Notes: generated from the sequence alone by a model not told the origin. A stretch of 35,904 bases of DNA from Acidobacteriota bacterium (GCA_027592785.1 JAQCLD010000042.1:1-35904), one strand, 5' to 3'. Positions 943 through 20,519 are shown, numbered from the stretch's first letter. Made by a program: numbers and translations.

Positions 943-1019
943 GGGCGCGTAGCTCAGTTGGTTAGAGCGCCTGCTTCACACGCAGGAGGTCCCCAGTTCG
1001 AGTCTGGGCGCGCCCACCA
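943..1019 (+). tRNA. tRNA-Val (anticodon CAC)
   Basis: A full cloverleaf can be drawn. The acceptor stem GGGCGCG (943-949) pairs with CGCGCCC (1009-1015), followed by discriminator A1016 and an encoded CCA (1017-1019). The D-stem is GCTC/GAGC (952-955/965-968). The anticodon stem CCTGC/GCAGG (970-974/982-986) frames the loop TTCACAC with CAC at 977-979, which reads GUG (Val). The T-stem is CCCAG/CTGGG (992-996/1004-1008) with loop TTCGAGT. A recombinase gene ends 7 bases downstream, so this tRNA is the likely integration target. Confidence 0.96.
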
Positions 1020-1025
1020 TTAGAA

Positions 1026-2048: not shown

Positions 2049-2201
2049 GTCCTCGACTCTCCCAAGGCACTTGGTCTTCTTGACTTCTAGCAAAATCAAT
2101 AACTCGTTTCTGATGCAGTTGGGCGTTCGTCAGGGCGTGCATGTCGATTCTCGGGACTTGGTATTCCCGACCAGTAATTGAGGAGCAAGAGCCGAGAGGG
2201 C

Positions 2202-2747
2202 TCAGCGGTTCGGGTTCGGGGGCAAGCTACGGACCCACTGCATTTGCTGGCCTTTGCTATCTAGGAGTGGGTCTACGCCAAAGCTCTTCTTAATCGAGGC
2301 GGCCCAACCCAGCGGCCTTGGCTTCGCCAGCCTTTCCTGTCCGAGGAGAGCGAATATCCCGTCGTGTGTGCGGCCCTTTATCCGTGGAGCGAGCAGGCCG
2401 AAGTACCGAATGTTGTGGCGGTAGTGGTCAGGAATGTGATCGGCCAGTGCAGTCAAGAACTCAGCGGGTGAGTAGGTGGTTTCGACTGTCTTCTTGGTGC
2501 GTGTGTCTTTCGTCAAGAATCGGATCTCCCGAGAATCGATCCTTTGAAATCGGTGCTGAGCGATCGGCGGGCGTCGTACATACCTTCCGGCGTATCCGAG
2601 GAACTGCTTCTTACTGTGGAAGCGTTGGATGTTGATGTTCCACCAGCGTTCGTACTGTGTCTTCAGCAGAGCCCGCAGAGTGCGCTTGGACATGTCTGTG
2701 ACGACGATGTTAGCGTTGGCGGCGTTGGCGGCTTGACAGAAGGCCAA
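2202..2747 (-). pseudogene. IS91-type (Y2) transposase, N-terminally truncated
   Basis: The product resembles the C-terminal half of Y2_Tnp/IS91-family rolling-circle transposases. It has the paired tyrosines in GYAGRYVRRPPIAQHR (Tyr-x-x-x-Tyr), then PDHYRHNIRYFGLLAPR and the distal FGVDPL block. The zinc-finger region and the HUH metal-binding motif that normally precede the Tyr pair are missing. The frame starts only at a TTG beside the junction with the truncated dehydratase, so it cannot transpose by itself. The family assignment rests on these motifs from memory of the family. The 3' end looks complete. Confidence 0.82.
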
Positions 2748-3486
2748 GCTTGCGGACGAGCCGCTCTGGCGATTTCTGGGAGGGTGCGACCCTCGGGTAA
2801 AGATTTACGCCGGCGGTATCGACCTCCTCACGCCCATCGAAGAACTCTGTGAGCAAACCCACGCCAATCTGGAACGAGGCATTCGCGCAATCCAAATGAA
2901 GGTCGGACGGGAGCGGCTTTCCGAGGATGTCGAGCGGGTGACGGCGCTGCGGGAACTGCTCGGCCCCGAGTTCCCGCTTATGGTGGATGCCAACATGTGT
3001 TGGAGTCCGGCGCACGCGACCCGCGCGGCGCGTGCTTTGCGCGAGCTGGACATCTACTGGTTGGAAGAGCCAACGACGCCGGATGACGTCGAAGGTCATG
3101 TGCGGATCGCCCGTGACGGCGGCGTCCCGATCGCAGCCGGCGAGAATCTCCACACGATCTACGAGTTCCAGAAGGCGATCGCCTCGGGCGGGATTGCCTT
3201 TCCTGAGCCCGACCTCGCAAACATCGGAGGCATCACGGGTTGGATGAAGGTGGCACACCTGGCCGAGGCACACAACCTGCCAGTCACGACGCACGGCGTC
3301 CACGATTTGCAAGTGCATCTTCTCGCGGCAGTTCCGAACGCTTCCTATCTCGAAGAACATGGGTTCTCTGTTGCGAAGTATCTACAACATCCCATGCAGA
3401 TTGAAGACGGAATCGTCATCGCCCCTGATCGGCCAGGTCATGGCGTCCAGTTCGACTGGGACGCGCTTGAGGCCCTACGCGCGTGA
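2737..3486 (+). pseudogene. Mandelate racemase/enolase-superfamily dehydratase, N-terminus missing
   Basis: From 2737 the frame reads as the end of the N-terminal capping domain (PLWRFLGG) and a nearly complete TIM barrel. Visible superfamily residues are a Lys in IQMKVG, Asp in MVDANMCW, Glu in WLEEP and AAGEN (metal ligands), and the His of TTHG after PDLANIGG. Typical members have about 370-400 residues. Only about 250 are here, and an in-frame stop (2734-2736) sits just upstream next to the IS91 remnant, so roughly the first 130 residues were lost at a rearrangement. An internal ATG at 2896 would give a 196-aa protein without the lid, probably inactive. Its stop overlaps the start of the transporter gene. 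The substrate (a sugar acid in many relatives) is unknown. Confidence 0.85.
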
Positions 3487-5600: not shown

Positions 5601-5726
5601 GTGTTCGACCAGATAGACCTATCCTCAATCCCATTCTTTGCCGCCCAGTTGGTGGTGTCCGGTCTGGACTCTTGGGACATTACCCGGAATCCTGATTCGA
5701 CTTGCTGCGGTTCTCTAACCTCATGA
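5601..5726 (+). CDS. Small ORF / possible leader peptide (41 aa) of the SulP-Dab-Mrp operon
   Basis: GTG start preceded by GGAGG (5591-5595) at 5-base spacing, the best ribosome-binding site in the region. It encodes 41 residues, mixed hydrophobic (SSIPFFAAQLVVSGLDSWD) with two adjacent Cys near the end and no known family. Its TGA (5724-5726) overlaps the ATG of the SulP gene in an ATGA junction, so ribosomes finishing it would be positioned to start SulP. It may be a translational-coupling leader or a genuine micropeptide. It is unusual enough to record but unproven. Confidence 0.4.
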   Translation: MFDQIDLSSIPFFAAQLVVSGLDSWDITRNPDSTCCGSLTS

Positions 5727-7360
5727 GCGTCACGACGACACCTGTTCCTAAGGGCACTATCGAGGGACTTCGCAGCTATTGGACCGCTGACCTGCTCTCG
5801 GGCTTTCTGGTGTTCCTCATCGCCCTGCCCCTGTGCCTCGGCATATCTCTCGCTTGTGGTTATCCGGCCATGGCGGGCATCTTCACCGCCATCATTGGTG
5901 GAGTCCTGTCGACATTTATTAGCAACTCGGAGCTGACCATCAAGGGCCCCGCGGCCGGACTGATCGTCATCGCGATCGGATGCGTCACGGACTTCGGTTT
6001 CACTGCCGGCACGGACCCCGCAGCGGATATGCAGGCCTATCGGCTTGCGCTGGGCGTCGGCGTCGCCGCTGGGGTTATTCAGATCCTCTTCGGACTCTTC
6101 CGAGCCGGCATTCTGGGCGAGTTCTTTCCATCGGCGGCAGTGCACGGCCTGCTCGCATCCATCGGCATCATCATCATCGCCAAACAGTTTCCAGTCACGT
6201 TGGGCTTGAGTTCGCAAGGGTCGCCGCTGGAACTGCTGGCGAAGATTCCCGAGTTCGTAATGACCATGAATCCGTACGTGGCGGTGATTGGGATTATCAG
6301 TTTGGCGGTGATGTTTGGGCACCCGTTCCTCAAGATAGGATTCATCCAGAAGATACCGGCCCCGATGATCGTACTGCTGCTCACGGTTCCGCTCGGGATG
6401 TACTTCGAGATGAGCCAGTCGCGAACGTATTCATACGGCGGCAGTGAGTTCGCTCTGGGTCCGCAGTTTCTGGTCGATGTTCCACTGAACATGTTTAGCG
6501 CAGTCGCATTCCCTGACTTCTCCGGTGTGGCGACGATGATCGGCTTGAAGTACATCGTGCTGTTCGCCTTGATAGGCAGCCTAGAATCTCTGCTTAGTTC
6601 GAAAGCGATCGACCAAATTGATCCTTGGAAGCGACGGACGGACCAAGATCGTGATTTGCTCGCGGTTGGAATCGCCAACACTGCTGCGGCCATGGTGGGC
6701 GGCCTGCCGATGATCTCCGAAATCGTCCGCAGCAAGGCGAACATCGACAATGGCGCGAAGACACGCTTCGCAAACATGTTCCATGGCCTCTGTCTACTTG
6801 CGTTTGTCGCGTTGGCCCCCGCTCTGATCAATCAGATTCCTCTCGCGGCGCTCGGAGCGATGTTGGTTTTCACGGGATTCCGGCTGGCGTCACCCAAAGA
6901 GTTCATCCACATGTATCACGTGGGGCGCGAACAGCTGATCGTGTTTGTGGCAACGATCATTGGCGTCCTAGCAACCGACCTTCTTGTGGGTATCGGGATT
7001 GGAATATTCGTCAAGGTCGTGATTCACCTTGTGAACCGAGCGCCCTTCGGGTCGCTTGTCCGACTGAATGCGCAGGTGGAGCGTGAAGGGACGGAGAGCG
7101 CTCGAGTCACGGTTCAGGACTCGGCGGTCTTCAGTACCTGGATCGGCTTAAAGAAGAAACTCGAAAACGTCCGGGACTGCAAACGAGTTGTCCTCGATCT
7201 GTCGAGCGTGGCTCTCGTCGACCACACGGTGATGCACAAACTCGAAGAAATGGAGGAGGAGTTCCAGGAACACGGCTCTACGTTGGTCGTCGAAGGACTG
7301 GACCAGCACACCAAGTTGTCGGACTATCCAACGGCGGCTAGGATAAAGGGAGCCCCATAG
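5723..7360 (+). CDS. SulP-family anion (probable bicarbonate) transporter with STAS domain
   Basis: A 545-aa SLC26/SulP transporter. The N-terminal membrane domain (about residues 10-430) contains the conserved ITIKGPAAGL-type loop (here TIKGPAAGLIVIAIG), and LVFTGFRLA lies near its end. A C-terminal cytoplasmic STAS domain (about 450-545) shows VVLDLSSVALVDHTVMHKLEEM. SulP proteins carry sulfate, bicarbonate (for example cyanobacterial BicA) or other anions. Its place one base before dabA favours bicarbonate. ATG at 5723 is chosen because it overlaps the small upstream ORF and starts at the normal N-terminus; a TTG at 5702 would only add seven residues. The stop TAG is followed after one base by the dabA ATG, implying a shared transcript. 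Confidence 0.93.
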   Translation: MSVTTTPVPKGTIEGLRSYWTADLLSGFLVFLIALPLCLGISLACGYPAMAGIFTAIIGGVLSTFISNSELTIKGPAAGLIVIAIGCVTDFGFTAGTDPAADMQAYRLALGVGVAAGVIQILFGLFRAGILGEFFPSAAVHGLLASIGIIIIAKQFPVTLGLSSQGSPLELLAKIPEFVMTMNPYVAVIGIISLAVMFGHPFLKIGFIQKIPAPMIVLLLTVPLGMYFEMSQSRTYSYGGSEFALGPQFLVDVPLNMFSAVAFPDFSGVATMIGLKYIVLFALIGSLESLLSSKAIDQIDPWKRRTDQDRDLLAVGIANTAAAMVGGLPMISEIVRSKANIDNGAKTRFANMFHGLCLLAFVALAPALINQIPLAALGAMLVFTGFRLASPKEFIHMYHVGREQLIVFVATIIGVLATDLLVGIGIGIFVKVVIHLVNRAPFGSLVRLNAQVEREGTESARVTVQDSAVFSTWIGLKKKLENVRDCKRVVLDLSSVALVDHTVMHKLEEMEEEFQEHGSTLVVEGLDQHTKLSDYPTAARIKGAP

Positions 7361-7361
7361 T

Positions 7362-10241
7362 ATGCCGCCTGTAGGGGCCTCAATGGCGCCGAATTCGACG
7401 ATGCGTACGTTATCCGCTGAAGAGCGAGACGGCGTCCGGCAGCAGGTCGAGGAAGCCTGCCAACCAGTCGCACAGTTGTGGCCCCTACGGACGTTCGCGT
7501 ATCGCAGCCCAGTTCGAGGGTACGAATACTTGCCTTTTGACGAGGCTGTCCGAGCGGCGCATCACACGCTCGGAGGCGTCGGCTATCTCCCTAACCACGA
7601 GTACCGCGGCTTCTACCAAGAAGGCCGCATCAAGGACGAAAACGTTGCGCGCGCGCTGACTCGAATGGGGCCGAGCGTGGACTCCGACGCAGTGGTCACG
7701 GTCGGTTCTCGAAGGATCACGGCGGCGGAAGTGTTGCGGATTCACTTGCTCTCAGGAATCGAAGCGCTAGAGCCAAAGCTGTTGGAGTGGACGCTAAAGG
7801 CTGAAGGCCTGATGAACTCGCTGACGACCGACGTACCGGGCGGCGATCTGTGGAATGCCATCCTGTCTGTGCTCGATGAAGACAGGCTAGTTGCTGTGCA
7901 CCAGGACTCGACCTTGGGCGAGGAATCCTTAGGTTTGCGGACACTTGGCGACTGGCTCGACGCTCGGGGAGGCGCCTCAATTGTCGAGCAAGTGAACGGC
8001 GAGATGATCAAATGGAGCGCGGCCTTTCTTGATGAAGGGCTAGCTGGTTGGGGCATGCCCGACCGATCGCAAGGGTTCTACCGATCCTGGCGGGAACTCG
8101 CAGCGCACGATGCTTCGGGCCGACTGCTAGGAGTCCGAGACTTTGGTGCGAAGGTGAGAGCGCTGCCTGACGCGCCCGAAGATGCGGTGGCTTGGTGCTT
8201 GAACACGCTCGAGGTGCCGGAGGCGAACTGGAAAGACTATCAGTCGCGGCAATTTGCGCAATTGCCCGGTTGGACAGGGTTCGTGAGATGGCGCGGTGAG
8301 AACCCCGAGTATCCGAGCCAGCAGGAGTATCCAATCGACTTGGTTGAGTACCTAGCGGTTCGGCTGTTCTACGAAGTTGTATTGGTCAACGCATTTTGCA
8401 AAAGGGCGTGGGGCATCCCCGGGACGCTGTCTGCGATCAAGCCGAAGCTCGCTGAGACGGAGACCCACGAGGAAGCCCCCCGCACGGTGATGTTGTGCCG
8501 AAGCGCGTGGCGTCTTTTCCGGCTCAGCCAACACTTGGAGCTTGCGGCCGAGGATGTAGCACGACTGTCTGAAGCCGACGTGCGTACGCTCCTCGGTTGG
8601 CTGGATGCGTTCCCCGCCGAGGACCATGGGCGGGTTTGGCTTGAGGCCTACGAAGACGCTTACCGCGACGGTCTCGTCGGAAAACTTTCGGCGCACGAAA
8701 GCATGGTGGCGAAAGCGGAACGTCCTCGCGCACAACTGATCTTGTGCATCGACGCACGTTCGGAGCCTTTTCGTCGGCACATTGAAGCAAGCGGGTCCTA
8801 CGAGACTTTCGGGTACGCTGGGTTCTTCGGCGTTCCGATGAGCCACCAAGCATTCGACAGCGCCGAGCGCCTCGCGCTCTGTCCTGTCCTGCTCAAACCT
8901 GGTCATGCAGTCGCTGAGACCTTCCGGCCTGGCGAGCCCGGCCCCATGCAGGCCTATGCGTCTGGGACCCGTTGGCGGCGGTTAGGCGACGATTTGTTTC
9001 ACGACCTAAAGCAAAACCTGTTGACTAGCTTCATGTTGGTCGACGCACTGGGGCTATTGTTCAGCATCGGGCTCACCGGAAAGTCCGTGTTTCGCAAGAC
9101 GTTCGTGAACAGCCGAGCCTGGCTGCGACGTGGATTCAAGCCTGCGCTGAATACCCACATACCGTTTGCGAGGACGGACCAGTCGGCGTCGGACAACGGA
9201 TTGCTGCACGGGTTCACGCTTGAGGAGCAGGCCGCGTTCGTCGGCGGCGGCCTGCGAGTCATCGGCCTAACCAAGCGGCTGGGCAAGTTCGTCGTTGCTT
9301 GTGGGCATGGCGCGATCTCGGAGAACAACCCTTACGCGGCCGCCTACAACTGCGGCGCTTGCGGTGGCGCCCACGGCGATCCGAATGCCCGCGTATTCGC
9401 GGCGATGGCAAATCGCCCCGAGGTTCGTCGCAAGTTAGCGGAAGCCGGGCTCGTGATCCCCGACGACACTTGGTTCTTGGCCGCCAAGCACGATACGACA
9501 GCGGACAGCGTGGCGTTCTATGACGTCTCCGACGTGCCCGCAACTCATACGGACGATTTCCGGCAGCTGACGCGCGACCTAGCGGAAGCAGGGGCTATCC
9601 AAACAGCGGAACGTTGTGCCCACTTACCCGGCTCTCCCAAAGGCATGTCGCCCAAAGCGGCCTTTGAGCACGCTCAATCCAGGGGCAGCGATTGGGCCAA
9701 CGTTAGACCCGAATGGGGCCTGTCGGGGAATGCGGCCTTCATCATCGGCCGGCGGCAGATTACTGCAGGCCTCGACCTTCAGTCACGGGTTTTCTTGCAT
9801 TCGTACGATCACGCTTCGGATCCGGAAGGAGCTCTGCTTGAGAAGATCATGACGGCCCCGCTGATTGTCGGCGAATGGATCAATATGGAGTACTACTTCT
9901 CCGCCGTTGATCCTTGGTTCTACGGCAGCGGCAGCAAGGTGATCCACAATGTGGTATCAGCGGGCGTCATGCTCGGGAGCCAGAGCGATCTCCAGGGCGG
10001 GCTTCCCTTGCAGGGCGTCAACAACGGCGCGAAGCACTATCACGAACCTATGCGTCTGCTAGCGATCATCGAGGCGCCGATGGAGCGAATCGCCTCCACC
10101 ATCGCCAAGCACGCCATTCTCCAGCAAGTGTTTCACAACGGGTGGATGAACCTATTGGCGTTCGATCCGGAGACGGGGCTTTTCCATCGCTACCACGCCG
10201 ATTCCAGTTGGGAGGTGATGTCGCAGCCGCGGGCCGCTTAG
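7362..10241 (+). CDS. dabA: DabA (DUF2309) inorganic-carbon accumulation subunit
   Basis: A 959-aa soluble or peripheral protein of the DUF2309 family, the catalytic half of the DAB (MpsB-type) systems, proposed to hydrate CO2 to bicarbonate vectorially with its membrane partner. The zinc-site residues are all visible: Cys462 and Asp464 in LCIDARSEPF, then His649 in CGHGA and Cys664 in NCGACGG. Cys-x-Asp and the 15-residue His-to-Cys spacing match the characterised Halothiobacillus DabA site (C351, D353, H524, C539, from memory). Arg466 completes the CxDxR dyad. It is flanked by SulP and by mrpE (22 bases). The usual neighbour, a lone dabB, is replaced by a whole Mrp-like membrane arm. Length and domain appear complete. 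Confidence 0.96.
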   Translation: MPPVGASMAPNSTMRTLSAEERDGVRQQVEEACQPVAQLWPLRTFAYRSPVRGYEYLPFDEAVRAAHHTLGGVGYLPNHEYRGFYQEGRIKDENVARALTRMGPSVDSDAVVTVGSRRITAAEVLRIHLLSGIEALEPKLLEWTLKAEGLMNSLTTDVPGGDLWNAILSVLDEDRLVAVHQDSTLGEESLGLRTLGDWLDARGGASIVEQVNGEMIKWSAAFLDEGLAGWGMPDRSQGFYRSWRELAAHDASGRLLGVRDFGAKVRALPDAPEDAVAWCLNTLEVPEANWKDYQSRQFAQLPGWTGFVRWRGENPEYPSQQEYPIDLVEYLAVRLFYEVVLVNAFCKRAWGIPGTLSAIKPKLAETETHEEAPRTVMLCRSAWRLFRLSQHLELAAEDVARLSEADVRTLLGWLDAFPAEDHGRVWLEAYEDAYRDGLVGKLSAHESMVAKAERPRAQLILCIDARSEPFRRHIEASGSYETFGYAGFFGVPMSHQAFDSAERLALCPVLLKPGHAVAETFRPGEPGPMQAYASGTRWRRLGDDLFHDLKQNLLTSFMLVDALGLLFSIGLTGKSVFRKTFVNSRAWLRRGFKPALNTHIPFARTDQSASDNGLLHGFTLEEQAAFVGGGLRVIGLTKRLGKFVVACGHGAISENNPYAAAYNCGACGGAHGDPNARVFAAMANRPEVRRKLAEAGLVIPDDTWFLAAKHDTTADSVAFYDVSDVPATHTDDFRQLTRDLAEAGAIQTAERCAHLPGSPKGMSPKAAFEHAQSRGSDWANVRPEWGLSGNAAFIIGRRQITAGLDLQSRVFLHSYDHASDPEGALLEKIMTAPLIVGEWINMEYYFSAVDPWFYGSGSKVIHNVVSAGVMLGSQSDLQGGLPLQGVNNGAKHYHEPMRLLAIIEAPMERIASTIAKHAILQQVFHNGWMNLLAFDPETGLFHRYHADSSWEVMSQPRAA

Positions 10242-10263
10242 GCTTCGATTGCGATTTCCAGCT

Positions 10264-10758
10264 ATGAACGCCGCCCACTCCAACACGTTGCCGCTACGGA
10301 CGCTCGCACTGTTCGTCCTGTGGCTGCTTCTATCCGAGAGTTACACCTTGGGTCACATGGCGATCGGGTTCGCCGCGGCGCTCAGTGTGGCGTTCTGGAA
10401 TTCAAGCTACCTGTCGCGCTCCGAATACCAGGTGCGCTGGGTCCAGGCATTCGCGTACCTTCCCTGGCTGTTTGGCCGGATTCTCGCCAGCGGCGCCCAT
10501 TTGTCGTATCTGATCCTCCATCCCAAGCTACCCATCGACCCTAAGATGATTCACCATCGCCCTCGATTGTCGAGCGAAACGGCGCTTGTGATTCTCGGCA
10601 ATTCTATTACGCTGACTCCGGGCACCATCACCCTCGAAGCGAGTTCGGACGAGCTCGTCGTGCACGCGATGGACGATGAGTCGACGATGGATGTCGTGAA
10701 CTTGCGGCTTGAGAACAAGATTTCCGGTCTATTTGTACGGAGGGCTTCCCGCCAATGA
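10264..10758 (+). CDS. mrpE: MrpE/MnhE-like (MbhA-like) antiporter subunit
   Basis: A 164-aa MrpE-family protein. Two N-terminal membrane segments (ALFVLWLLLSESY, AIGFAAALSVAFW) are followed by a further helix and a cytoplasmic domain with the conserved ALVILGNSITLTPGTIT block. In Mrp-type Na+/H+ antiporters this small subunit caps the end of the complex. Translation probably starts at ATG 10264; the frame is open from 10249 but lacks an initiation signal there. The stop TGA overlaps the mrpF ATG (ATGA). It is the first subunit of a run that follows the order E-F-G-(D/E fusion)-B-C-D. Confidence 0.92.
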   Translation: MNAAHSNTLPLRTLALFVLWLLLSESYTLGHMAIGFAAALSVAFWNSSYLSRSEYQVRWVQAFAYLPWLFGRILASGAHLSYLILHPKLPIDPKMIHHRPRLSSETALVILGNSITLTPGTITLEASSDELVVHAMDDESTMDVVNLRLENKISGLFVRRASRQ

Positions 10759-11021
10759 CCGGATTCAGCCTAGTGGTCCTGGATGTGTTGGCAGTGCTGA
10801 TCGTTGTCTACCTGTACCGTGTCGTACGCGGACCGACTGTATACGACCGAATCTTGGGACTGAACGGGATCTCCACTAAGGCGATCATCCTCCTGGTGGT
10901 CATTGGTACGGTCTACGAACGGGTCGCAATGTTCGTCGATATATCTACTGGCTACGCTTTGCTCAATCTGGTAGGCGCGTTGGCGCTGGCCAAGTATTTG
11001 GAACAGAGAGGAGCTTTGTAA
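10755..11021 (+). CDS. mrpF: MrpF/MnhF-like (MbhB-like) subunit
   Basis: An 88-aa protein with three hydrophobic helices and the family core RVVRGPTVYDRILGLNG, including the conserved Asp-Arg after the first helix. This is the normal size for the family. The start overlaps the mrpE stop by 4 bp and GGAGGG lies about 9 bases upstream. TAA (11019-11021) is directly followed by the ATG of mrpG. It is a membrane subunit of the cation/proton-translocating arm. Confidence 0.94.
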   Translation: MTGFSLVVLDVLAVLIVVYLYRVVRGPTVYDRILGLNGISTKAIILLVVIGTVYERVAMFVDISTGYALLNLVGALALAKYLEQRGAL

Positions 11022-11321
11022 ATGGAATACGTTGGCGCAGGGCTGATGACCGTTGGCCTGCTCTTTATGGTCGTTGCTGCAGTCGGCATGGTCCGCCTGC
11101 CCGACGTCTATACGCGGGCTCATGCCGTCGCGTTGACGGATTCTCTGGGTGCGGTGTTTCTATTGGCCGGTTTGGCAGCGCAGCAAGGATTCAGCCCGAA
11201 TGCGCTGAGAATTCTTGTAGTCCTCTCGCTGCTCTACATCCTGAACCCCGTAATCGCCCACGCAACAATTCGAGCGGCGCGGCGGTCGGGCCTGAGGCCA
11301 TGGACCAGGGAGAAGCCATGA
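11022..11321 (+). CDS. mrpG: MrpG/MnhG-like (MbhC-like) subunit
   Basis: A 99-aa protein with three hydrophobic helices and the MrpG signature MVRLPDVYTRAHAVALTDSLG, close to the family's RLPDxYTRxHA. It is preceded by AGAGGAG. The C-terminal tail is basic and the TGA overlaps the next start (ATGA at 11318). It is a structural subunit of the Mrp/Mbh-type membrane arm. Confidence 0.94.
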   Translation: MEYVGAGLMTVGLLFMVVAAVGMVRLPDVYTRAHAVALTDSLGAVFLLAGLAAQQGFSPNALRILVVLSLLYILNPVIAHATIRAARRSGLRPWTREKP

Positions 11322-11848
11322 GCTATTCGTTCGAGCTGCCGCTGTTGATCCTACTTATTCTGACAGCTGGCGGAGCCATCGTCGTAAAGGACCTAATCAG
11401 TTCGGTCCTCATTCTGGGTTCTTACAGTTTCTTTCTGGCGCTTGTTTGGGCGTGGTTGGGGGCAGTCGACGTCGCCTTCGTTGAAGCGGTGGTCGGAGCC
11501 GGGCTGGCGACTGTCTTCTTCCTGTTAACGCTTTTCCGGATGGCTCCCGAGCATATATTGATTCAGCGTTCCCCGCCGCCAATCAGTGCGGTCATTGCCC
11601 TGCCTTTGCTGGGACTGTTGCTGCTTTATGCGGCGTCGGACCTTCCCGCGTTCGGCGATCCCCAGTCGCCGGCAAGTTCCCACATATCGCCGTACTACTT
11701 GGAGAATAGCCTCCGTGAAACGCAGACTCCTAACGTCGTCACGGCTGTTCTGATGGACTATCGAGCCCTCGACACGATGCTCGAAACGGGAGTGATCTTC
11801 ACGTCCGGCATGGCCTGCTGGCTCTTGCTGGGGAGGAAACACTCGTGA
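11318..11848 (+). CDS. Stand-alone MbhD-MbhE-like fusion (MrpA C-terminal/DUF4040 type)
   Basis: A 176-aa membrane protein equivalent to the region that in classical Mrp operons forms the C-terminus of MrpA. The first half (about residues 1-75: AGGAIVVKDLISSVLILGSYSF, DVAFVEAVVGAGLATVFFL) is the DUF4040/MbhD domain. The second half (about 115-176: SPYYLENSLRETQTPNVVTAVLMDYRALDTMLE-type block) is the MbhE/MnhB-N domain. It is a separate gene here, not fused to the NuoL-like protein. ATG 11318 is chosen over 11300 because it gives an ATGA overlap and has GGGAGAAG upstream. The conserved Glu/Lys residues of the MbhD helices are thought to form part of the ion pathway. Confidence 0.88.
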   Translation: MSYSFELPLLILLILTAGGAIVVKDLISSVLILGSYSFFLALVWAWLGAVDVAFVEAVVGAGLATVFFLLTLFRMAPEHILIQRSPPPISAVIALPLLGLLLLYAASDLPAFGDPQSPASSHISPYYLENSLRETQTPNVVTAVLMDYRALDTMLETGVIFTSGMACWLLLGRKHS

Positions 11849-12294
11849 TCAATACGCCACATGACAGCGTAATCGTGCAGAGTTCCGGGCGGTTCTTGAT
11901 TCCTCTGATTCAGCTATTTGGGCTCTATGTTCTGTTCTTTGGGCAGTACGGACCTGGCGGAGGTTTTGTAGGAGGCGTCTTGCTGGGTGCAAGTCTCATC
12001 GCCGGCCTGTTGATCTTTGGCCCCGACGGAACGTCGTCGGAAACCGCCAGAAGGGTGCTAAAGATTGACGGGTTCGGCTTGATCATCTTCGCCGGCATCG
12101 GTGGCTTGTGCCTGATCGGAGGCGGCGAATTCCTGAACTACTCGAGCTTCTCGATCCCCGGCATCGATGATTCCACGCGCCGCCATGTCGGCATTATCGT
12201 GGCTCAGATCGGAGTCGCCCTCGACATCGCGGTAGCGGCGGTGTCCATCGTCTACAGCCTATCTGACCAAGGCGAGGATGGCTCTGATGCTTGA
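11845..12294 (+). CDS. mrpB: MrpB/MnhB-like (MbhF-like) subunit
   Basis: A 149-aa MnhB-domain protein with four hydrophobic helices and the family motif QYGPGGGFVGGVLLGASLI. The GTG start overlaps the preceding TGA (GTGA) and follows a strong GGGGAGGAAA site. The C-terminus is short and acidic. It is a subunit of the cation/proton-translocating arm. It overlaps the beginning of mrpC. Confidence 0.94.
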   Translation: MINTPHDSVIVQSSGRFLIPLIQLFGLYVLFFGQYGPGGGFVGGVLLGASLIAGLLIFGPDGTSSETARRVLKIDGFGLIIFAGIGGLCLIGGGEFLNYSSFSIPGIDDSTRRHVGIIVAQIGVALDIAVAAVSIVYSLSDQGEDGSDA

Positions 12295-12661
12295 CGTCAT
12301 TGAGGCGTTGCTACGTCGACCGAACTTCGTCGCCTTCGTGACTTTGTTCTTGTGGGGCCTCTACATCACGGTCGTGCATCACAACCTCGTCAAGAAGTTG
12401 ATCGGCCTCTACCTGGTACAGACCAGCGTTATCTTCTTCTTAGTCACGACCAGCGTGAAGTCGGGAGCAACCGTGCCGATCGTGGATCTTGCTGCAGGCA
12501 CGGCCCCTGAGGTGTATATGAATCCTCTGCCTCACGCCCTGACGCTGACCGCCATCGTTGTGCAGGTGGCGACGCTGGGCGTCTCCTTGGCCCTAGTGGC
12601 GGCCATCTATCGCCGATTCGGTTCTCTCGATGAGAACGAGATCTTGAAGCGACTAGAATGA
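12287..12661 (+). CDS. mrpC: MrpC/NuoK-like (MbhG-like) subunit
   Basis: A 124-aa NuoK/MnhC homologue with three hydrophobic helices. The family block is LVKKLIGLYLVQTSVIFFLV, and the second part ends in the PLPHALTLTAIVVQVAT stretch typical of MnhC. The open frame begins at ATG 12278. ATG 12287 is preferred because GGCGAGG (12271-12277) is then correctly spaced, while it would touch the earlier ATG. It overlaps the mrpB stop by 8 bases and the mrpD start by 4. Confidence 0.93.
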   Translation: MLDVIEALLRRPNFVAFVTLFLWGLYITVVHHNLVKKLIGLYLVQTSVIFFLVTTSVKSGATVPIVDLAAGTAPEVYMNPLPHALTLTAIVVQVATLGVSLALVAAIYRRFGSLDENEILKRLE

Positions 12662-14136
12662 CTCAACATCTGCCAGCACTAGTATTCCTCATACCGTTTT
12701 TCGCCGCCATTAGTCTTCCTCTAGTGGCGATGCGTGATGAGCGGCGTGCTGGGTCGATCGCGTTGGCGGCTCTGTGCGCCATGTCCGCGGCGGCAATAGC
12801 AAGCCTGTGGACCATTTTGGACCAGGGAGTGGTTCGCTACGACTTCGGTGGGTGGGCCGCCCCAATAGGCATCGAATGGGTGGCTGACGAAGTGGCCGCG
12901 ATCATGGCGGTTGCGGCTAGCCTGCTGGCACTGGTGTGCGTCTTCTACGCGGCCTCTTTGCCGACAACGGCGATCGAAGGAAGAATGATTCCGTTCTACG
13001 CGATCCTTCTTCTCTTGATTTCCGGACTCGCTGGAGTAATCTACGCTGGCGATCTATTTAACCTCTTCGTCTTTTTGGAAATCGTCGCGCTGTCGGCTTA
13101 CGCACTGGTGGCCGTGCCCGGAGGCAGGGCCCTGGTATCAGCGTTTCGATACCTCATCATGGGCGCCCTCGGAGCCTCCTTCTATCTGCTCGGAGTCGCC
13201 TACTTCTACGCGGCTACCGGAACGCTGAACATAGTGGATCTTGGCCAGCGAATCCCACAGCTCTTGGAGTCGAAAGCGGTCATCGTGGGGCTGCTCTTCA
13301 TGTTCTTGGGATTGGGCATCAAAACTGCCCTGATGCCGCTGCACGCCTGGCTGCCTGACGCCTACTCTGACGCCCCAGATTCCGTTTCGCCGATCATCGC
13401 GGCTTTGTTAACCAAGGTTGCCCTATTGGCTTGGGTCCGCGTCTTGTTTTGGGTAGTCGGTGCAGGAGGCGGGTCCCAGCCAGCCGTCGTATTCTCGCTG
13501 GTGTGGTCGCTGGGCGCGCTGGCTGCGGTGGGCGGCGCCGTTCTCGCGCTGAGCCAGACGGGATTGAGGCGAATGTTCGCCTACGGCGGCATCGCTCACA
13601 TTGGGCTGATTCTGGTCGGCGTAGGGCAAGCGAGCCACACCGGGTTAGCTGGAGGGCTCTTCTATTTGATCAATGACGCCGTGATGCAGTGCGTCTTGTT
13701 CATCTGGGCCGGCGTACTGGCCCATCAGTATGGCGTTCGGACGATCGAGGATCTAAAGAACGCCCAAGTCCGGAACCCTTGGATTCTCGGGTCATTCCTT
13801 GTAGTCACCATCGGCATGATCGGCCTGCCTCCGACCGGCGGTTTCTTTGGAAAGTGGTACATCGTCCTAGCCGCGGTTGAGAGCCAGAACTATATTGCCT
13901 TAGCCGCTGTCGTCGTGACCACGTTGCTCACCCTCGCGTACTTCGTTCGCGTCTTGGAGAAGCTCTACCGAGGGGCCCGCGATACCGGCACGAGCAGCTC
14001 GGTCGCCGAGCCCGTGATGTCCCTATCGTTTCGCGTGGGCATCGCTGTGCCCACGGCGGCGATCATCGGCCTTGGTTTGTTCAGCGACCGTATCGTCACC
14101 ATTTTGTTAGCAGCGACTAGCGGGTTGGGTCTATGA
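12658..14136 (+). CDS. mrpD: MrpD/MbhH-like proton/cation antiporter subunit
   Basis: A 492-aa, about 14-helix protein of the Proton_antipo_M family (NuoN/MrpD type). Expected charged residues for ion transfer are present: Glu in FVFLEIVALSAY, Lys in GLGIKTALMPLHAWLPDAY and Lys in ALLTKVALLAW, then a GLPPTGGFFGKWY discontinuous helix. ATGA overlap with mrpC. In Mrp and Mbh complexes this subunit carries an ion channel across the membrane. Together with the two following homologues it would supply three such half-channels. Confidence 0.95.
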   Translation: MTQHLPALVFLIPFFAAISLPLVAMRDERRAGSIALAALCAMSAAAIASLWTILDQGVVRYDFGGWAAPIGIEWVADEVAAIMAVAASLLALVCVFYAASLPTTAIEGRMIPFYAILLLLISGLAGVIYAGDLFNLFVFLEIVALSAYALVAVPGGRALVSAFRYLIMGALGASFYLLGVAYFYAATGTLNIVDLGQRIPQLLESKAVIVGLLFMFLGLGIKTALMPLHAWLPDAYSDAPDSVSPIIAALLTKVALLAWVRVLFWVVGAGGGSQPAVVFSLVWSLGALAAVGGAVLALSQTGLRRMFAYGGIAHIGLILVGVGQASHTGLAGGLFYLINDAVMQCVLFIWAGVLAHQYGVRTIEDLKNAQVRNPWILGSFLVVTIGMIGLPPTGGFFGKWYIVLAAVESQNYIALAAVVVTTLLTLAYFVRVLEKLYRGARDTGTSSSVAEPVMSLSFRVGIAVPTAAIIGLGLFSDRIVTILLAATSGLGL

Positions 14137-14175
14137 GCTACCGCGGGAATATTGCTATGAGGGGGGAGCGATAGT

Positions 14176-16203
14176 ATGACGGTCTTCGCGCTCATCCCGC
14201 TGCTGCCGCTGCTGGGTTTCTTTGTCATTGCCTTTGGCGGCAATCGCCTTGGTGAGGTCAGCCACAGGATTGGCATTCCCGCGGTAGGCCTGTCTGCGGC
14301 GCTTTCCTTTGTTGCCTTCTACTACGTGGCGGTCGCGGGGCCGATATCGATCCCGCTTTACACGCTGATCGATGTTGGCGCCGTCTCCGTTGCCGTGGAT
14401 CTCTACATCGACCAGCTCACCGTTCTGTTGCTGTTGCTGGTGACGGTCGGCAGTTTCGTCGTTCACGTCTACTCATCGAGCTACATGATCGGCGACCCGC
14501 GATACAGGCGTTTCTTCGCGGTAATCGGGCTGTTTACGTTCGCGATGGTTCTATTGGTGATGAGCAACAACTTGCTCGTGACCTACATGTGCTGGGAGGT
14601 CATGGGGATCTGTTCCTACTTGCTGATCTCGCATTGGGCTCACCGCGAGTCGGCTGCCAAAGCCGCGACCAAGGCATTCTTAGTTAACGCTGTCGCCGAT
14701 GTCGGTCTTGGCTTTGGAGTCATCTTCACTCTTGCTACTTACGGCACGCTGAACATTCAAGAGATCCTGGCGGCTGTTCCGAGCATGGCCGGGTCCGACA
14801 TCAATCTGCTCGGTTGGCTTGGATTCGAATGGTTGATTGAGCGTAATACGCTGATCACGTTCTGTCTGCTGTCGGGCGCACTGGGCAAGTCCGCTCAGTT
14901 CCCGCTTCACATTTGGCTGCCTTTCGCCATGGAAGCGCCAACGCCGATATCAGCTCTGATTCACGCCGCGACAATGGTCAACGCAGGGCCATTCCTATTG
15001 GCTCGCATGAGCCCTCTCGTGTTGTCCGCGCCTTCAGCAATGGCGGTCATCGCGATCGTAGGAATGACAACCGCTGTGTACGGCGGCCTGGTCGCGCTAA
15101 CCCAGTCGGACATCAAGAAGTCGCTGGCCTATTCCACCATCAGCCACATCGGATTCATGATTTTCGCGTGCGGAGTCGGCGCTTTTGTCGCGGCGATCTT
15201 CCATTTGCTGGCGCACGGATTTCTCAAAGGTTTCTTGTTCCTTTCGACAGGCAATGCGCTTGAGTCGGCAAGCGCACACGGGCACGCCAAGAGTAGCGGA
15301 CGAGTTTCGGGTTCACTGGCGGCCGGGGCCCTGTTGCTCGCTCTGATTCCGGCGGTGGTGATCTTCTCGGGACCGTATGAGCAGATGTGGACCGCACATC
15401 AGACTCCCGCGGCTCAAGTCGCGTTCTTTTTTCTAGCTCTCGCCACAGTCTTTTTGACGGGGATGTACATCTTCCGTGCTGTGAGTTCGCTGTTTGGGCA
15501 TCAGGTCGGCAACTCCGGCGTTCTGCCGAATCTGTTCGCGCCCGCCTATCTTGCGGGAGTCGGCGTTCTAGTGGCCGCCGTGGGATGTCTCCTCGTTTTC
15601 GTGTGGACGTGGTTTGCCGCCTTCTTAGGGCCAGCCCTAGGCGCCCAACCGCCGCTCGCGGCCGGTCCGGCCTTCTCGCCGTGGCTCGTGGCGGCGCTAT
15701 TGGCAGCGGTCGCCGGATGGGGTTTCGCGCGTCAGTTCCAGCCCAGCCCGACGTTTGCGGGCGCTTGGACCAAGATGGCTTACGTGGCTCTGTTGAACCG
15801 ACTTTACGTCGACGAAATCTTCGACGCTTTCGTCGTCGGGCCCTTCATTCGGTTCTGTGATTGGTTACAAGGAACAATTGAGACTCTCGGCTTGGACAAC
15901 TTAATTCAGACGACTGCCAGAGTCGTGATGGTGCTGTCGAACTGGCTTTGGACCGTGCTGGAAGTCAGAGGCCTGGACCGTGGGCTCGGCGGTGGAGCGG
16001 ACTCGTCCGTAGCCTTGTCGCGCTGGCTTTGGCGAGTGGTAGATCTTCGTGGCGATGCCATGGTCGAGGGGCTCGGACGCGCCAGCGATGAGACCGGCGA
16101 GATGCTGCAGAGAATCGAACCCCGCACATTGCAGCATCACTTGTTGGTCGTTGTTTTTTGGCTGATGTTGGCAATAGCTCTGTCGTATTGGTTAATCCTG
16201 TGA
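14176..16203 (+). CDS. NuoL/DabB-like membrane subunit
   Basis: A 675-aa NuoL-family antiporter subunit with about 15-16 helices and an amphipathic C-terminal extension ending in a last helix (LLVVVFWLMLAIALSYWLI). Key residues are Glu in MCWEVMGICSYL and Lys in GALGKSAQFPLHIWLP. The usual LPDAM is LPFAM here. The segments ATMVNAGPFLLARMSPL and GFMIFACGVGAFVAAIFHLLAH resemble DabB (MpsA) more than complex-I NuoL, so it is the best candidate for the direct docking partner of DabA. It lacks the DUF4040 tail of MrpA, supplied by the separate gene at 11318. GGGGGGAG precedes the ATG. It lies 39 bases after mrpD. Confidence 0.9.
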   Translation: MTVFALIPLLPLLGFFVIAFGGNRLGEVSHRIGIPAVGLSAALSFVAFYYVAVAGPISIPLYTLIDVGAVSVAVDLYIDQLTVLLLLLVTVGSFVVHVYSSSYMIGDPRYRRFFAVIGLFTFAMVLLVMSNNLLVTYMCWEVMGICSYLLISHWAHRESAAKAATKAFLVNAVADVGLGFGVIFTLATYGTLNIQEILAAVPSMAGSDINLLGWLGFEWLIERNTLITFCLLSGALGKSAQFPLHIWLPFAMEAPTPISALIHAATMVNAGPFLLARMSPLVLSAPSAMAVIAIVGMTTAVYGGLVALTQSDIKKSLAYSTISHIGFMIFACGVGAFVAAIFHLLAHGFLKGFLFLSTGNALESASAHGHAKSSGRVSGSLAAGALLLALIPAVVIFSGPYEQMWTAHQTPAAQVAFFFLALATVFLTGMYIFRAVSSLFGHQVGNSGVLPNLFAPAYLAGVGVLVAAVGCLLVFVWTWFAAFLGPALGAQPPLAAGPAFSPWLVAALLAAVAGWGFARQFQPSPTFAGAWTKMAYVALLNRLYVDEIFDAFVVGPFIRFCDWLQGTIETLGLDNLIQTTARVVMVLSNWLWTVLEVRGLDRGLGGGADSSVALSRWLWRVVDLRGDAMVEGLGRASDETGEMLQRIEPRTLQHHLLVVVFWLMLAIALSYWLIL

Positions 16204-16288
16204 AGCTAAACGATATCAGCGATCCTGTGGCATCATGGTGCGGCTGTGCTGAGCGCTGCCTCACGGCTTTGAAGTTGAGGTGCCTGGA

Positions 16289-17791
16289 ATGAGTACGATT
16301 CTCGCCGATCATTTGATTAGCTGCCTGATCGCAGTCCCGTTCTTGGGCATTGCCTTGTTGGTTCTTGCGAAGAGCGACGAGTGGGCTCGACGCATTGCGT
16401 TATTGGCCACGTTCGCCGCGCTTGGAGTAGCAATTACGGCGCTGCTGAGTTTTGACCCCGGCCAGTCAGGTATGCAGTTCGTTGAGCGTGCGGAGTGGAT
16501 GCCCACCTTCAACATTCAGTACGCCGTCGGACTTGACGGCATCAGTATGCTGCTAGTCCTGTTGACGGCGCTGCTATCGCCCATCTGCGTTTTGGCTTCA
16601 TGGAAGTCGATCGACAGCAAGGTCAAGGCTTACATGGCGCTGATCCTCTTGGTCGAAGGGGCCATGATCGTCGTCTTTACCGCCCTGGACCTGTTTCTGT
16701 TCTTCATGTTGTGGGAAGTCACGATGATTCCCATGTATTTCATGATCGTGATCTGGGGCGGGCCTGGCCGCATCGCCGCCGGCATCAAGTTCGTGCTTTA
16801 TAGTCTGACCGGCAGCCTTCTGCTACTTGTCGGCATTCTCGGACTTTACCTGGAGGGCGGTCGGACATTCGACATCCTGGCGCTGAGCGGGCAAACGTTC
16901 AGCGACGATGTGCAGTTTTGGATCTTTCTGGCGCTCCTACTCGGATTCGGCATCAAGCTCCCGATGATCCCGTTCCACTCCTGGCTTCCAGACGCGCACT
17001 CAGAAGCCCCGACCGCCGGCAGCGTTATCCTCGCCGGAGTGCTGTTGAAGCTGGGCGGTTACGGGTTCTTGCGGATCTGTCTTCCGATTCTGCCGGACGC
17101 TTCCGTGGTCTTTGCTCCCTTGATGGTATGGCTGTCCGTCGGGGCGATCTTGTACGGAGCGTGTCTCGCACTGGCCCAGACTGATCTCAAGAGACTAGTG
17201 GCCTACTCGTCGATTTCTCATATGGGCTTCGTGACACTGGGAATCTTCGCGTTCAATGAGCAGGGGGTTCAGGGCGCCATTCTGCAAATGTTTAATCACG
17301 GCATCACGACCGCAGCGCTGTTCTTGGCCGTAGGGCAGCTATACGATCGGACTCACAGCCGTTCAGTCGACGATTATGGCGGCCTGCACAAGCAGATGCC
17401 GCGGTTTGCCGTGGCGCTTTCGTTCTTTTCGGTCGCGTCCTTCGGTTTGCCTGGGACGGCCAATTTCATCGGCGAGTTCCTCGTGTTGGTCGGCGCTTCC
17501 TATACGAGTTTTGCGAGAGTCTTGCTCGCGATGCTTGGAATCGTTCTGGCTGCGGCCTACATGCTGTGGATGCTTCAACGTGTGGTTCTCGGGAAAGCCT
17601 TGACCCGGGCGGCAGCCGCGCTTCCTGACCTCAGTACCCGCGAGATGGCGACGCTCGTTCCGCTTGCCATCATCATTTTCGTTGTAGGCGTATACCCAGG
17701 TCTTCTGATGGAGTTAATGGACGCGAGCGTCATCAACCTTGTAGAGCAGGCGCGGGTCGGGCTGCCAGCCGATATGGCGGCGCTGGACTAG
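16289..17791 (+). CDS. NuoM-like proton-translocating subunit
   Basis: A 500-aa NuoM-family (complex-I chain 4) protein with about 14 helices. It shows Glu in MLWEVTMIPMYFM, Lys in GIKLPMIPFHSWLPDAHSEAP and in LLKLGGYG, and LPGTANFIGEF. It closely resembles genuine complex-I NuoM, yet no other nuo peripheral-arm gene is nearby, so it probably belongs to the Mrp-Dab assembly. ATG 16289 is preferred to GTG 16280 because a GAGG-type site is correctly placed. The gap of about 85 bases after the NuoL-like gene is the largest inside the operon. TAG ends the operon; no strong terminator follows. Confidence 0.92.
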   Translation: MSTILADHLISCLIAVPFLGIALLVLAKSDEWARRIALLATFAALGVAITALLSFDPGQSGMQFVERAEWMPTFNIQYAVGLDGISMLLVLLTALLSPICVLASWKSIDSKVKAYMALILLVEGAMIVVFTALDLFLFFMLWEVTMIPMYFMIVIWGGPGRIAAGIKFVLYSLTGSLLLLVGILGLYLEGGRTFDILALSGQTFSDDVQFWIFLALLLGFGIKLPMIPFHSWLPDAHSEAPTAGSVILAGVLLKLGGYGFLRICLPILPDASVVFAPLMVWLSVGAILYGACLALAQTDLKRLVAYSSISHMGFVTLGIFAFNEQGVQGAILQMFNHGITTAALFLAVGQLYDRTHSRSVDDYGGLHKQMPRFAVALSFFSVASFGLPGTANFIGEFLVLVGASYTSFARVLLAMLGIVLAAAYMLWMLQRVVLGKALTRAAAALPDLSTREMATLVPLAIIIFVVGVYPGLLMELMDASVINLVEQARVGLPADMAALD

Positions 17792-18035
17792 CAGGGAAGC
17801 CCAACCGGACGCTCCCGTCCTCTGACGAACGGCGGAGGCGCCCTCACAGTATCTGCGGCGGACTCAGTCGCCCGAACACGGCAGGATACACGAAATCTCC
17901 GTCTACATACTTCCAGTGTTTTCAATAACTTGCCTCCGTTTTGTCGTGGTAAGCGCCGTCCAGGAACACAACGAGGTACACTCCGTCTCGGGTAACCGCG
18001 CCCTTACAGGGGCCGTCATTCCCATTACTAGGCTG

Positions 18036-19076
18036 ATGAGTTTCTACGTTCGTTTGTTATCGCTCACGCTGCTTGGCGGATCCCTGCTTTGGGGACAGTC
18101 CAGCGACCGCTTCACTCAGGCGGTTTTGCCGTTCCTTGCGCAGAACTGCTACGCCTGTCACGGCTCCGACGACGCCGTCGGCAAGTTGAACATCGCGCGG
18201 CTGGACTCGCCGCAGTCGCTGCAAGAGCACCGCGCGCAATGGGCAGCCATGGCCGAGAAAATGGCGTCGGGCGAAATGCCGCCTGCGGGATTTCCGCAAC
18301 CGCCGGCAGAACAGCGGACAGCTGTCGTCGAATGGGTCACGGCGGAGCTGGCGCGCCTCGACGATCTCGTCGCCCCGAACCCGGGCCGTGTGACCGCGAG
18401 CAGGCTGAATAGGGCCGAGTACGACAACACGGTTCGCGACCTACTCGGCGTCCGATTCCGCCCTGCCGACGACTTTCCGCAAGACGATTCCGGCTACGGC
18501 TTCGACAACATCGGCGACGCTTTATCGCTGTCTCCCGTACTGATGGAGAAGTATCTATCCGCAGCGGAGGCAGTATCGCGGACCGCCATCTTTGGCGTAA
18601 AAGAGTTGCAGCCCGCCCTCACGCGTTTCGACCCAGCCTTCATGAACTTCGATGAGAGCCAAGATGCGCCGTTCACTTACGACGAGACCGGCCTGAGTCT
18701 GCCGAGCGCGCTCCACGTGTCCCATCGCTTTCTCGCGGATGGCGATTACGACTTCACCGGGTTGATTCGAGGCTTCCGCCCGCCGGGCTCCGAGCCGATC
18801 CCAATGGCTTTCTGGATCGACGGCGAGATGGTGGAGGCCGTCGACGTCGAAATACCTTCAACGGGCGAACTCTCCGGCCAGATAGCGATGATCCGTCATC
18901 ATGTGACGGCGGGCGATCATTGGTTGGCCGTCTCGTTCCTGAAGCTCTATCACGGCCTTCCGCACGAATACAGCGGACCGGAACCATCCAAGCTTCCGCC
19001 CCCGCCGCCTGCCGATCCCGATGAGCTGTTCCGGCCCCCGCCTGGTGCGACGCCCGAAGAGATCACCGAACTCTAG
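18036..19076 (+). pseudogene. Cytochrome c/DUF1587-DUF1592 protein, N-terminal part (gene broken by TAG)
   Basis: First part of a large secreted haem protein of the Planctomycete-cytochrome/DUF1587-1592-1588-1585 type. ATG 18036 begins a signal peptide (LLSLTLLGGSLLWGQ). A cytochrome-c site CYACH (Cys38, Cys41, His42) follows, with a likely axial Met in GEMPPAG, then the DUF1587 block RLNRAEYDNTVRDLLGV and a beta-rich, carbohydrate-binding-like region. The frame stops at TAG 19074 and continues open afterwards in the same frame to a second TAG at 19287, then to the normal end at 20519. Without the two stops the protein would be 827 aa, a normal family length. The N-terminal piece alone is probably non-functional. 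Confidence 0.85.
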
Positions 19077-19289
19077 GCCCGCAAAGAGCGTTTCCTCGCT
19101 CGCCGGGCGCGACAGGCAGACGCCGGCAATGCCGACGCGCGCCGGCGTGCTTCGGCTGGCTTCTTCATGAGCAACCTCGACGTGACTGGCCCTTACAACC
19201 AGAAGCTAGGCCCGTCTGAAGAAAGCAAGAAGCTCATCTATACCTGTGGGCATTCCGACGGCGTACATAACCTAGCTTGCACCCGATAG

Positions 19290-20519
19290 ATCGTCTCCAA
19301 TCTGGCGACACACGCCTACCGCCGGCCAGTCGCCGAAGCCGAAGTGCAAGAACTCATCGGCTTGGTGGAGATGGTCCAGCGGACAGGCGACCCCTTCGAA
19401 GAAGGCCTCGCCCTGGCCATGCAGCGCCTCTTAATCTCGCCCAACTTCCTGTTCCGCATTGAGCATGGAACGGAATTGCCCGGCAAGCCCTTCCAAGCCG
19501 TCGCCGACTACGAACTCGCCTCGCGGCTTTCCTATTACTTGTGGAGCAGCATGCCTGACGACGAACTCATGCGGCTCGCCGGCGAGGGCCGTCTGCGGGA
19601 CGAAGCTGTTCTCGATGCGCAGGTGCACAGAATGCTGCAGAGTCCTAAAGCGCAGGCTCTTGTGAAGAACTTTGGCGGGCAATGGCTTCAGTTCCGGGCC
19701 CTGGAGTCCATCAAGCCCGACCGGGACGTATTCCCAGCATTCCAAGAGTATCTGCGCAAGTCGATGGCAGAAGAGACCGAACAGTTCTTCGCCTACATCG
19801 TCCAACAAGACCGTCCGATTACAGACTTCATCGCTGCCGACTACACATTCCTCAATGAGAAGTTGGCCAATTTCTACGGCATCCCCGGAGTCAAAGGAAA
19901 CGAGTTCCGTAAGGTGGACCTGGCGGGTACGCCCCGCGGCGGCGTTCTGACCCAGGCCAGCATCCTGACGGTGACCTCCTACGCCAATCGAACCTCTCCT
20001 GTATTGCGTGGCAAGTGGGTTCTCGAGAATATCTTGAACGCGCCGCCTCCGCCGCCTCCGCCCGGCGTACCGCCGCTCGAAGAATCCTCGGTTGGTCCGA
20101 CGGCATCTCTAAGGAAGAAGATGGAAGCCCACCGCACCAACACGACCTGCGCTTCCTGCCACGCCCGCATGGACCCGCTCGGATTCGGGCTAGAGAACTT
20201 TGATGCAATCGGAGCCTGGCGAACCAAGGACGGTGAGCACGACATCGACGCTTCCGGGAAATTGCCCGATGGCCGATCGTTCAATGGGCCAACGGAATTG
20301 CGCGAGATCTTGACCGCTGACCGCGATGCGTTCACTGTTGGTATGACAGAGCGCATGCTGACCTACGCCCTAGGCCGTGGCCTTGAGACTTACGATCGCC
20401 GGACGGTTCGCTCGATTGCGCGCGAAACTGCTGAGAACGACTACCGCCTCTCAAGCCTTGTTGCTGGAATCGTGAAGAGCCTGCCGTTTCAGCATCGCCA
20501 AGAGGGAGAAAACCAATGA
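19290..20519 (+). pseudogene. DUF1592/DUF1588/DUF1585 C-terminal part of the same broken gene
   Basis: Continuation of the preceding gene in the same frame. Just before the second TAG the frame reads HSDGVHNLACTR, then IVSNLATHAYRRPVAEAEV, matching the family's CARxI...AYRRPV junction, so the TAG replaces one normally coded residue. DUF1592 (about LLISPNFLFRIEHG to FGGQWLQ), DUF1588 (NRTSPVLRGKWVLENIL, PPPPPPGVPPLEE) and DUF1585 follow, with a second CxxCH (CASCHARMDPLGFGLENF). A restart at GTG 19344 or ATG 19371 is possible. The TGA overlaps the ATG of the DUF1552 partner. The cellular role of this family is not established; a role in secreted electron transfer or polymer breakdown is usually guessed. 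Confidence 0.85.

Follow-up and report, generated by a model that had tools for sequence, protein, structure and literature searches.

In DAB2 of Halothiobacillus neapolitanus, a two-subunit system composed of DabA2 and DabB2 (PDB 9rd0), a finger of DabA brings Glu444 to the position of NuoL Lys399/Asp400, and replacement of this residue (E444A/Q) abolishes activity in vivo (PMC13144422). The association of DabA with SulP, NuoL, and NuoM has been on record since 2017 (PMC5700660), and that of Mrp with NuoL, NuoM, and BicA is likewise already known, from Nitrospira (PMC7784846, PMC12342949). Group 3 Mrp is defined by the absence of mrpA and includes the Mrp sets inside respiratory complexes (PMC8415708). 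Among open-access papers, no literature joining DabA with these Mrp clusters was found.

The window, a stretch of 35,904 nucleotides, belongs to the genome (G000) of a Bryobacterales-like acidobacterium, and the relatives carrying its operon are Bryobacterales and Terriglobia MAGs. Eleven plus-strand genes form one tight operon (positions 5702 to 17791), ordered SulP-DabA-MrpE-F-G-MbhDE-B-C-D-NuoL-NuoM, in which neighbors abut or overlap (intergenic spacing, -22 to +76 bases). Assignment with Pfam and NCBIfam models agrees with the gene identities and order of the preliminary description, i.e., E-F-G-MbhDE-B-C-D followed by NuoL and NuoM and preceded by DabA. The genes are as follows.

5702 to 7360, plus strand: SulP family anion transporter with STAS domain, BicA/sulfate permease superfamily (PF00916, E = 7e-54; best PDB match, 6ki1).
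7362 to 10241, plus strand: DabA, the cytoplasmic carbonic anhydrase-like subunit (PF10070, E = 1e-257, 857 bits; DabA2 of 9rd0, E = 3e-117).
10249 to 10758, plus strand: MrpE, equivalent to MbhA (PF01899; start at TTG 10249 or ATG 10264).
10755 to 11021, plus strand: MrpF, equivalent to MbhB (PF04066).
11022 to 11321, plus strand: MrpG, equivalent to MbhC (PF03334; TIGR01300 above cutoff).
11300 to 11848, plus strand: fused MbhD and MbhE protein, corresponding to the C-terminal portion of MrpA (PF13244 and PF20501; NF009159 above cutoff).
11845 to 12294, plus strand: MrpB, equivalent to MbhF (PF04039).
12278 to 12661, plus strand: MrpC, equivalent to MbhG/NuoK (PF00420 and MrpC models).
12658 to 14136, plus strand: MrpD-type antiporter subunit of the group 3 Mrp clade (Pfam/NCBIfam models, trees, and conserved E141, K222, K253, and K399).
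14176 to 16203, plus strand: NuoL-like subunit, interpreted as DabB (TIGR01974 above cutoff, tree position with DabB, TM12 residues, and C terminus).
16280 to 17791, plus strand: NuoM-like antiporter subunit (TIGR01972, 611 bits; tree position and proton path residues).

The SulP gene, which is the first gene of the operon in most relatives, scores below the cutoffs of the NCBIfam sulP and BicA models, and the fused MbhD and MbhE protein aligns to the C terminus of MrpA in 7d3u. Upstream of the operon, positions 943 to 3486 hold a tRNA-Val gene and, beyond it, genes for a tyrosine integrase, a fragment of an IS91-like transposase, and an MR_MLE enzyme truncated at its N terminus; this region resembles the border of a genomic island. 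Downstream, the gene at 17916 belongs to an unrelated DUF1587/cytochrome set. PSCyt1/PSD3 and PSD5/PSD4/PSCyt3/PSD2 domains, which normally lie on one protein, are split there over two neighboring open reading frames (17916 to 20519), possibly through a frameshift or a split gene.

The Mrp gene order had been read in the preliminary description as that of mbhA-H rather than A-B-C-D-E-F-G. The match is real, with D and E fused, but it is not specific to Mbh. In a census of clusters, the order E-F-G-DE-B-C-D was found in 23 of 24 stand-alone group 3 clusters, in most redox-linked clusters, and in the Dab-linked clusters, whereas 22 clusters that begin with MrpA have the order A-B-C-D-E-F-G. The stand-alone Mrp of Pyrococcus (P. 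furiosus mrpEFGBB'CD) also has the former order (PMC8415708), which is therefore common to stand-alone group 3 Mrp and no Mbh signature. As in group 3, the operon encodes E, F, G, DE, B, C, and D without a fused MrpA; it has neither the leading fused MrpA of classical group 1/2 Mrp nor subunits that fall in that clade. DabA does not take the place of the hydrogenase, as had been supposed: it is encoded upstream of the Mrp genes and is partnered by the NuoL-like gene toward the other end of the operon. No catalytic subunit resembling a hydrogenase or NuoD was found among the gene products scanned in the window.

Phylogenies of the Mrp subunits, the check proposed for a grouping with Mbh-type arms, placed the Dab-linked genes elsewhere. 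In a tree of 47 MrpD sequences, some of them from solved structures of Mrp, Mbh, and Mbs, the Dab-linked sequences form one clade (100/100) that joins stand-alone bacterial group 3 Mrp (100/99); Mbh, Mbs, and classical Mrp lie outside this grouping, and a wider quick tree concurs. Six concatenated small subunits place the DAB-associated sequences inside group 3 (100/100). Both trees are midpoint rooted and sample Acidobacteriota, Nitrospirales, and a few PDB sequences. Approximately unbiased (AU) tests on MrpD rejected the union of the DAB-associated sequences with Mbh, either alone (P = 0.013) or together with two hydrogenase-linked loci (P = 0.004), and with Mbs (P = 6e-6). Classical MrpA-first sequences form a clade of their own (100/100) that excludes the Dab-linked genes in both the MrpD and the concatenated trees, and these trees rule out a rearranged group 1 Mrp, the outcome named beforehand as evidence against an Mbh-like arm.

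Descent from an archaeal-type Mbh arm, with DabA replacing the hydrogenase, would account for a gene order and subunit set identical to those of mbhA-H. The census and the published Pyrococcus order (PMC8415708) nevertheless make that identity uninformative, and the trees and AU tests, which put the arm with stand-alone bacterial Mrp, reject such descent, which we regard as barely credible. The broader proposal of modular reuse is reasonable insofar as an antiporter arm is combined with a carbonic anhydrase-like partner, but its Mbh-like ancestry is not supported. Bryobacterales sequences (L030 to L039) nest inside those of Nitrospirales (L130 to L158) in the MrpD and concatenated trees, and this nesting suggests horizontal transfer from Nitrospirales to Bryobacterales. 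Some Bryobacterales have a second, classical MrpA-first Mrp cluster beside the Dab-linked one (L150 and L159).

The zinc site residues of DabA (C462, D464, H649, and C664) correspond to C351, D353, H524, and C539 of DabA2, and all four are kept in the DabA clade wherever the sequence covers them. D561, at the finger tip, corresponds to Glu444 of DabA2 and is Asp throughout the clade, apparently a conservative replacement that leaves the tip acidic. The AlphaFold model of DabA was poor (pTM, 0.35) and was not used. In a tree of antiporter-like proteins, made by a quick method and with some long branches, the window NuoL groups with DabB, including the solved DabB2, inside the NuoL family (SH-aLRT, 90; 99 with NuoL), and NuoM adjoins complex I NuoM. 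None of the 20 NuoL sequences examined from the operon's family retains the TM12 Lys-Asp pair (K399/D400). The replacement is P/Y nearly always, including in the window, and T/Y and P/F once each; other proton path residues are largely kept. The pair is I/A in DabB2 and is retained in Escherichia coli NuoL and cyanobacterial NdhF. The missing pair, the zinc site, and the acidic finger tip together identify DabA and NuoL, at the sequence level, as a DAB pair in which NuoL is the DabB of the system. The proton path residues are complete in MrpD and in NuoM (E/K/K/E), so MrpD and NuoM would each provide an intact antiporter channel, and NuoL a third channel, of the DabB type, that DabA completes.

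The tree and the TM12 residues also rule out NuoL as a displaced complex I gene. NuoL lacks the Lys-Asp pair of complex I, no quinone or redox subunits are encoded nearby, and PF00346 (NuoD) had no match in the whole genome, a MAG that is 94% complete; its three PF00361 antiporter-like proteins are all encoded in the window. The genome thus shows no sign of complex I, for which an assembly gap could be responsible. NuoM is nearest to complex I NuoM and yet accompanies DAB loci. In one relative (L034), nuoN/M/L-like genes lie next door. RuBisCO was rejected as support for autotrophy: the single match in the genome (L183, G000:C113) keeps a KDDE motif but lies next to what is presumably a DUF1537-type four-carbon acid sugar kinase, a neighbor that suggests a RuBisCO-like decarboxylase and probably no role in CO2 fixation.

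DabA is present in 15 of 17 other genomes of the window's GTDB family. All of the first 10 operon relatives checked in this family have the identical 11 genes in the same order, and in one more family genome (G002, L040) the sole DAB is a distant one that lacks Mrp. The full set recurs with its order unchanged in 14 of 14 Bryobacterales/Acidobacteriota loci of another collection, drawn from a DabA alignment scan of 84,980 species genomes, and in about 20 Nitrospirales loci with small variations. This conservation, read like the residue states and the phylogeny directly from the sequences, shows that the arrangement is not due to chance. Adjacency of dabA and dabB, usual in DAB but not strictly defining, is absent from the window and its relatives, where the seven Mrp genes intervene. 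In one genome (G656), DabA is retained about 260 kb away from the Mrp genes. Among 236 Nitrospirales genomes, DabA of this type occurs in 36 of the 39 with MnhB of this type and in 2 of the rest; one of these 2 (L172) has MrpE-F-G beside DabA on a short contig, and in the other the match is cut by a contig end. The P value for this co-occurrence (1.5e-36) is overstated because Nitrospirales genomes share ancestry, which largely explains the association.

Nitrospirales also contain other arrangements. A second DAB type (L169, L173 to L177, L179, and L182) has a NuoL without the long C-terminal helix, followed by DabA, usually with a distant NuoM-like protein between them. Some DabA proteins are very long (1,400 to 1,480 amino acids; L163 to L167) and have no recognizable DabB/NuoL gene nearby. 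The scan of 84,980 genomes further recovered Nitrospira loci with DabA-NuoL-NuoM, SulP further on, and no Mrp. DabA-NuoL-NuoM lacks adjacent Mrp genes in L064, L066, L069, L071, L072, and L171, and in some Nitrospira loci, such as L069 and L072, dabA and dabB are adjacent. Mrp is thus not obligatory for this DAB type. The Mrp-less set adjoins the Mrp-linked L145 in the DabA (93/96) and NuoL (99) trees; loss of Mrp in this Nitrospira lineage would fit, subject to an uncertain rooting.

These loci bear on two other readings of the operon. NuoL and NuoM could be additional, mnh-like Mrp subunits of a pH/salt antiporter with DabA as a mere neighbor, in line with the published reading of the Mrp+NuoL+NuoM cluster in lineage IV Nitrospira (PMC7784846, PMC12342949). 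This is improbable here: the tree puts NuoL with DabB, its TM12 Lys-Asp pair is missing, and it is found beside this type of DabA even in loci without Mrp. Alternatively, one operon may encode two separate machines, a DAB complex (DabA with NuoL and probably NuoM) and a stand-alone group 3 Mrp Na+/H+ antiporter, coexpressed with SulP, with Mrp exporting the Na+ from Na+-linked bicarbonate uptake and balancing the H+ released by CO2 hydration. Since DAB loci occur without Mrp, and group 3 Mrp occurs in stand-alone form, either half can function by itself; cooperation of SulP/BicA with Mrp has been proposed for "Ca. Nitrospira alkalitolerans" and Aphanothece (PMC7784846). Against two machines, dabA and its NuoL partner are separated by the Mrp genes wherever DabA is directly linked, NuoL and NuoM stand where stand-alone group 3 clusters have their extra antiporter subunits, and without them the Mrp set would have only one antiporter-like subunit. 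Separate machines are a credible alternative, held at distinctly less than even probability.

The C terminus of NuoL provides evidence on how the subunits might be arranged. Beyond a Y-x-D-E motif it consists of tandem repeats of 23 to 28 residues (type WLWRVVDLRGIDRVVVGLGxxSVxxAx; about residues 555 to 640), followed by a final hydrophobic helix; repeat number varies among relatives and reaches about 5 in L157. NuoL extends 132 to 187 amino acids beyond the motif in Mrp-linked loci and 89 to 142 in Nitrospira loci without adjacent Mrp, but only 29 in the second Nitrospirales DAB type, for those sequences in which the motif was found; the value for L139 (33 amino acids) reflects a spurious motif match and was excluded. 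Helix length as a strict ruler for antiporter subunit number (≤115 amino acids without Mrp and ≥132 with it) is contradicted by L171 (142 amino acids, no adjacent Mrp), and such a ruler is not claimed because the ranges overlap. The AlphaFold model of NuoL, of moderate quality (pLDDT, 66), contains one helix from 530 to 622 at low confidence, and a fold search with it returned complex I NuoL/ND5. A lateral helix of this kind spans adjacent antiporter subunits in complex I and MrpA, and the long NuoL helix accordingly favors, without proving, an array NuoL-NuoM-MrpD.

The best-supported reading, which we put at about even odds, is that the operon specifies a DAB-type vectorial CO2 hydration system coupled to a group 3 Mrp cation/proton antiporter arm. 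By homology to DAB2, DabA would dock on the NuoL-like subunit, and its acidic finger D561 would enter the site where NuoL normally has the TM12 Lys-Asp pair. NuoL, NuoM, and MrpD would form an array of three antiporter-like channels, and the NuoL C-terminal helix would extend over NuoM and MrpD in the direction of the sodium module (MbhDE/B/F/G/E). Ion flow (H+, and Na+ probably via the Mrp part) would drive CO2 + H2O → HCO3- + H+ inside the cell in one direction, and SulP might contribute bicarbonate or anion exchange. The stricter version, slightly less than an even bet, assembles about ten subunits into a single membrane complex: its group 3 Mrp arm, with three antiporter-like channels and a sodium module, would use Na+/H+ gradients for one-way CO2 hydration by DabA, and the repeat-built lateral helix of NuoL would serve as a coupling rod. 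We infer one physical complex, Na+ coupling, and the direction of ion flow. The reverse direction, with the array acting as a primary pump whose Na+/H+ export is powered by an exergonic DabA reaction, would suffer from the little free energy that CO2 hydration yields near neutral pH. It was put forward for DabA/YbcC operons containing NuoL and NuoM (PMC5700660), but DAB2 binds CO2 without spontaneous hydration and depends on membrane potential (PMC13144422), making this direction very improbable.

The relatives carrying the operon appear to be largely marine or sponge associated. For the Bryobacterales MAGs we presume this from isolate naming, and lineage IV Nitrospira is mostly marine (PMC12342949). 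A Na+-linked DAB would be sensible in a marine setting because a proton-only system would probably be costly at seawater pH. Counting against a Na+ arm, the authors of the DAB2 study argue against sodium coupling in their two-subunit system. The operon links two literatures that have apparently been separate so far, on DAB carbon uptake complexes and on the Mrp+NuoL+NuoM clusters that have been a puzzle in marine and alkaline Nitrospira. If it encodes one machine, a complex I-type ion-pumping arm would drive a carbonic anhydrase rather than a redox reaction, giving a complex I superfamily arm of Mrp size with a nonredox catalytic head. Coupling of arm and head would then be testable, as would a sodium-based inorganic carbon supply of marine nitrifiers and sponge-associated bacteria. 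The operon thus suggests that a membrane arm pumping sodium or protons may supply the energy for carbon capture in marine bacteria.

Among the known systems, DAB2 has the zinc site residues, the acidic finger tip, and a NuoL-like partner without the TM12 Lys-Asp pair in common with the window. The window differs in having Asp for Glu at the finger tip and a full-length NuoL with a long repeat-built helix and intact Glu144, and its operon adds seven Mrp subunits, NuoM, and SulP. The YbcC/DabA "clade C" operons, in which DabA precedes NuoL and SulP and NuoM are also present, share the DabA-NuoL-NuoM-SulP association, whereas the seven Mrp genes between DabA and NuoL are unmentioned in the accessible text of that 2017 description (PMC5700660). 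The Mrp+NuoM+NuoL+BicA cluster reported from "Ca. Nitrospira alkalitolerans" and lineage IV Nitrospira is very probably the same operon type, as Nitrospirales loci L130 to L158 carry its content. The published interpretation is a pH/salt antiporter that has additional mnh-like genes, and the accessible text leaves DabA unmentioned (PMC7784846, PMC12342949; the term "DabA" has zero matches in that of the latter); DabA was apparently overlooked in these clusters, and NuoL and NuoM were read as extra Mrp genes. The Mbh and Mbs of P. furiosus (6cfw and 6u8y) share the order of the membrane arm and the reuse of one arm with another catalytic part, but the window lacks their redox head, and MrpD phylogeny excludes a sister relation. 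Stand-alone group 3 Mrp (bacterial E-F-G-DE-B-C-D-D-D and that of P. furiosus) shares the subunit set, the order, and the phylogenetic position of MrpD and the small subunits; in the window, its two extra antiporter-like genes are replaced by a DabB-type NuoL and NuoM, and DabA and SulP are added.
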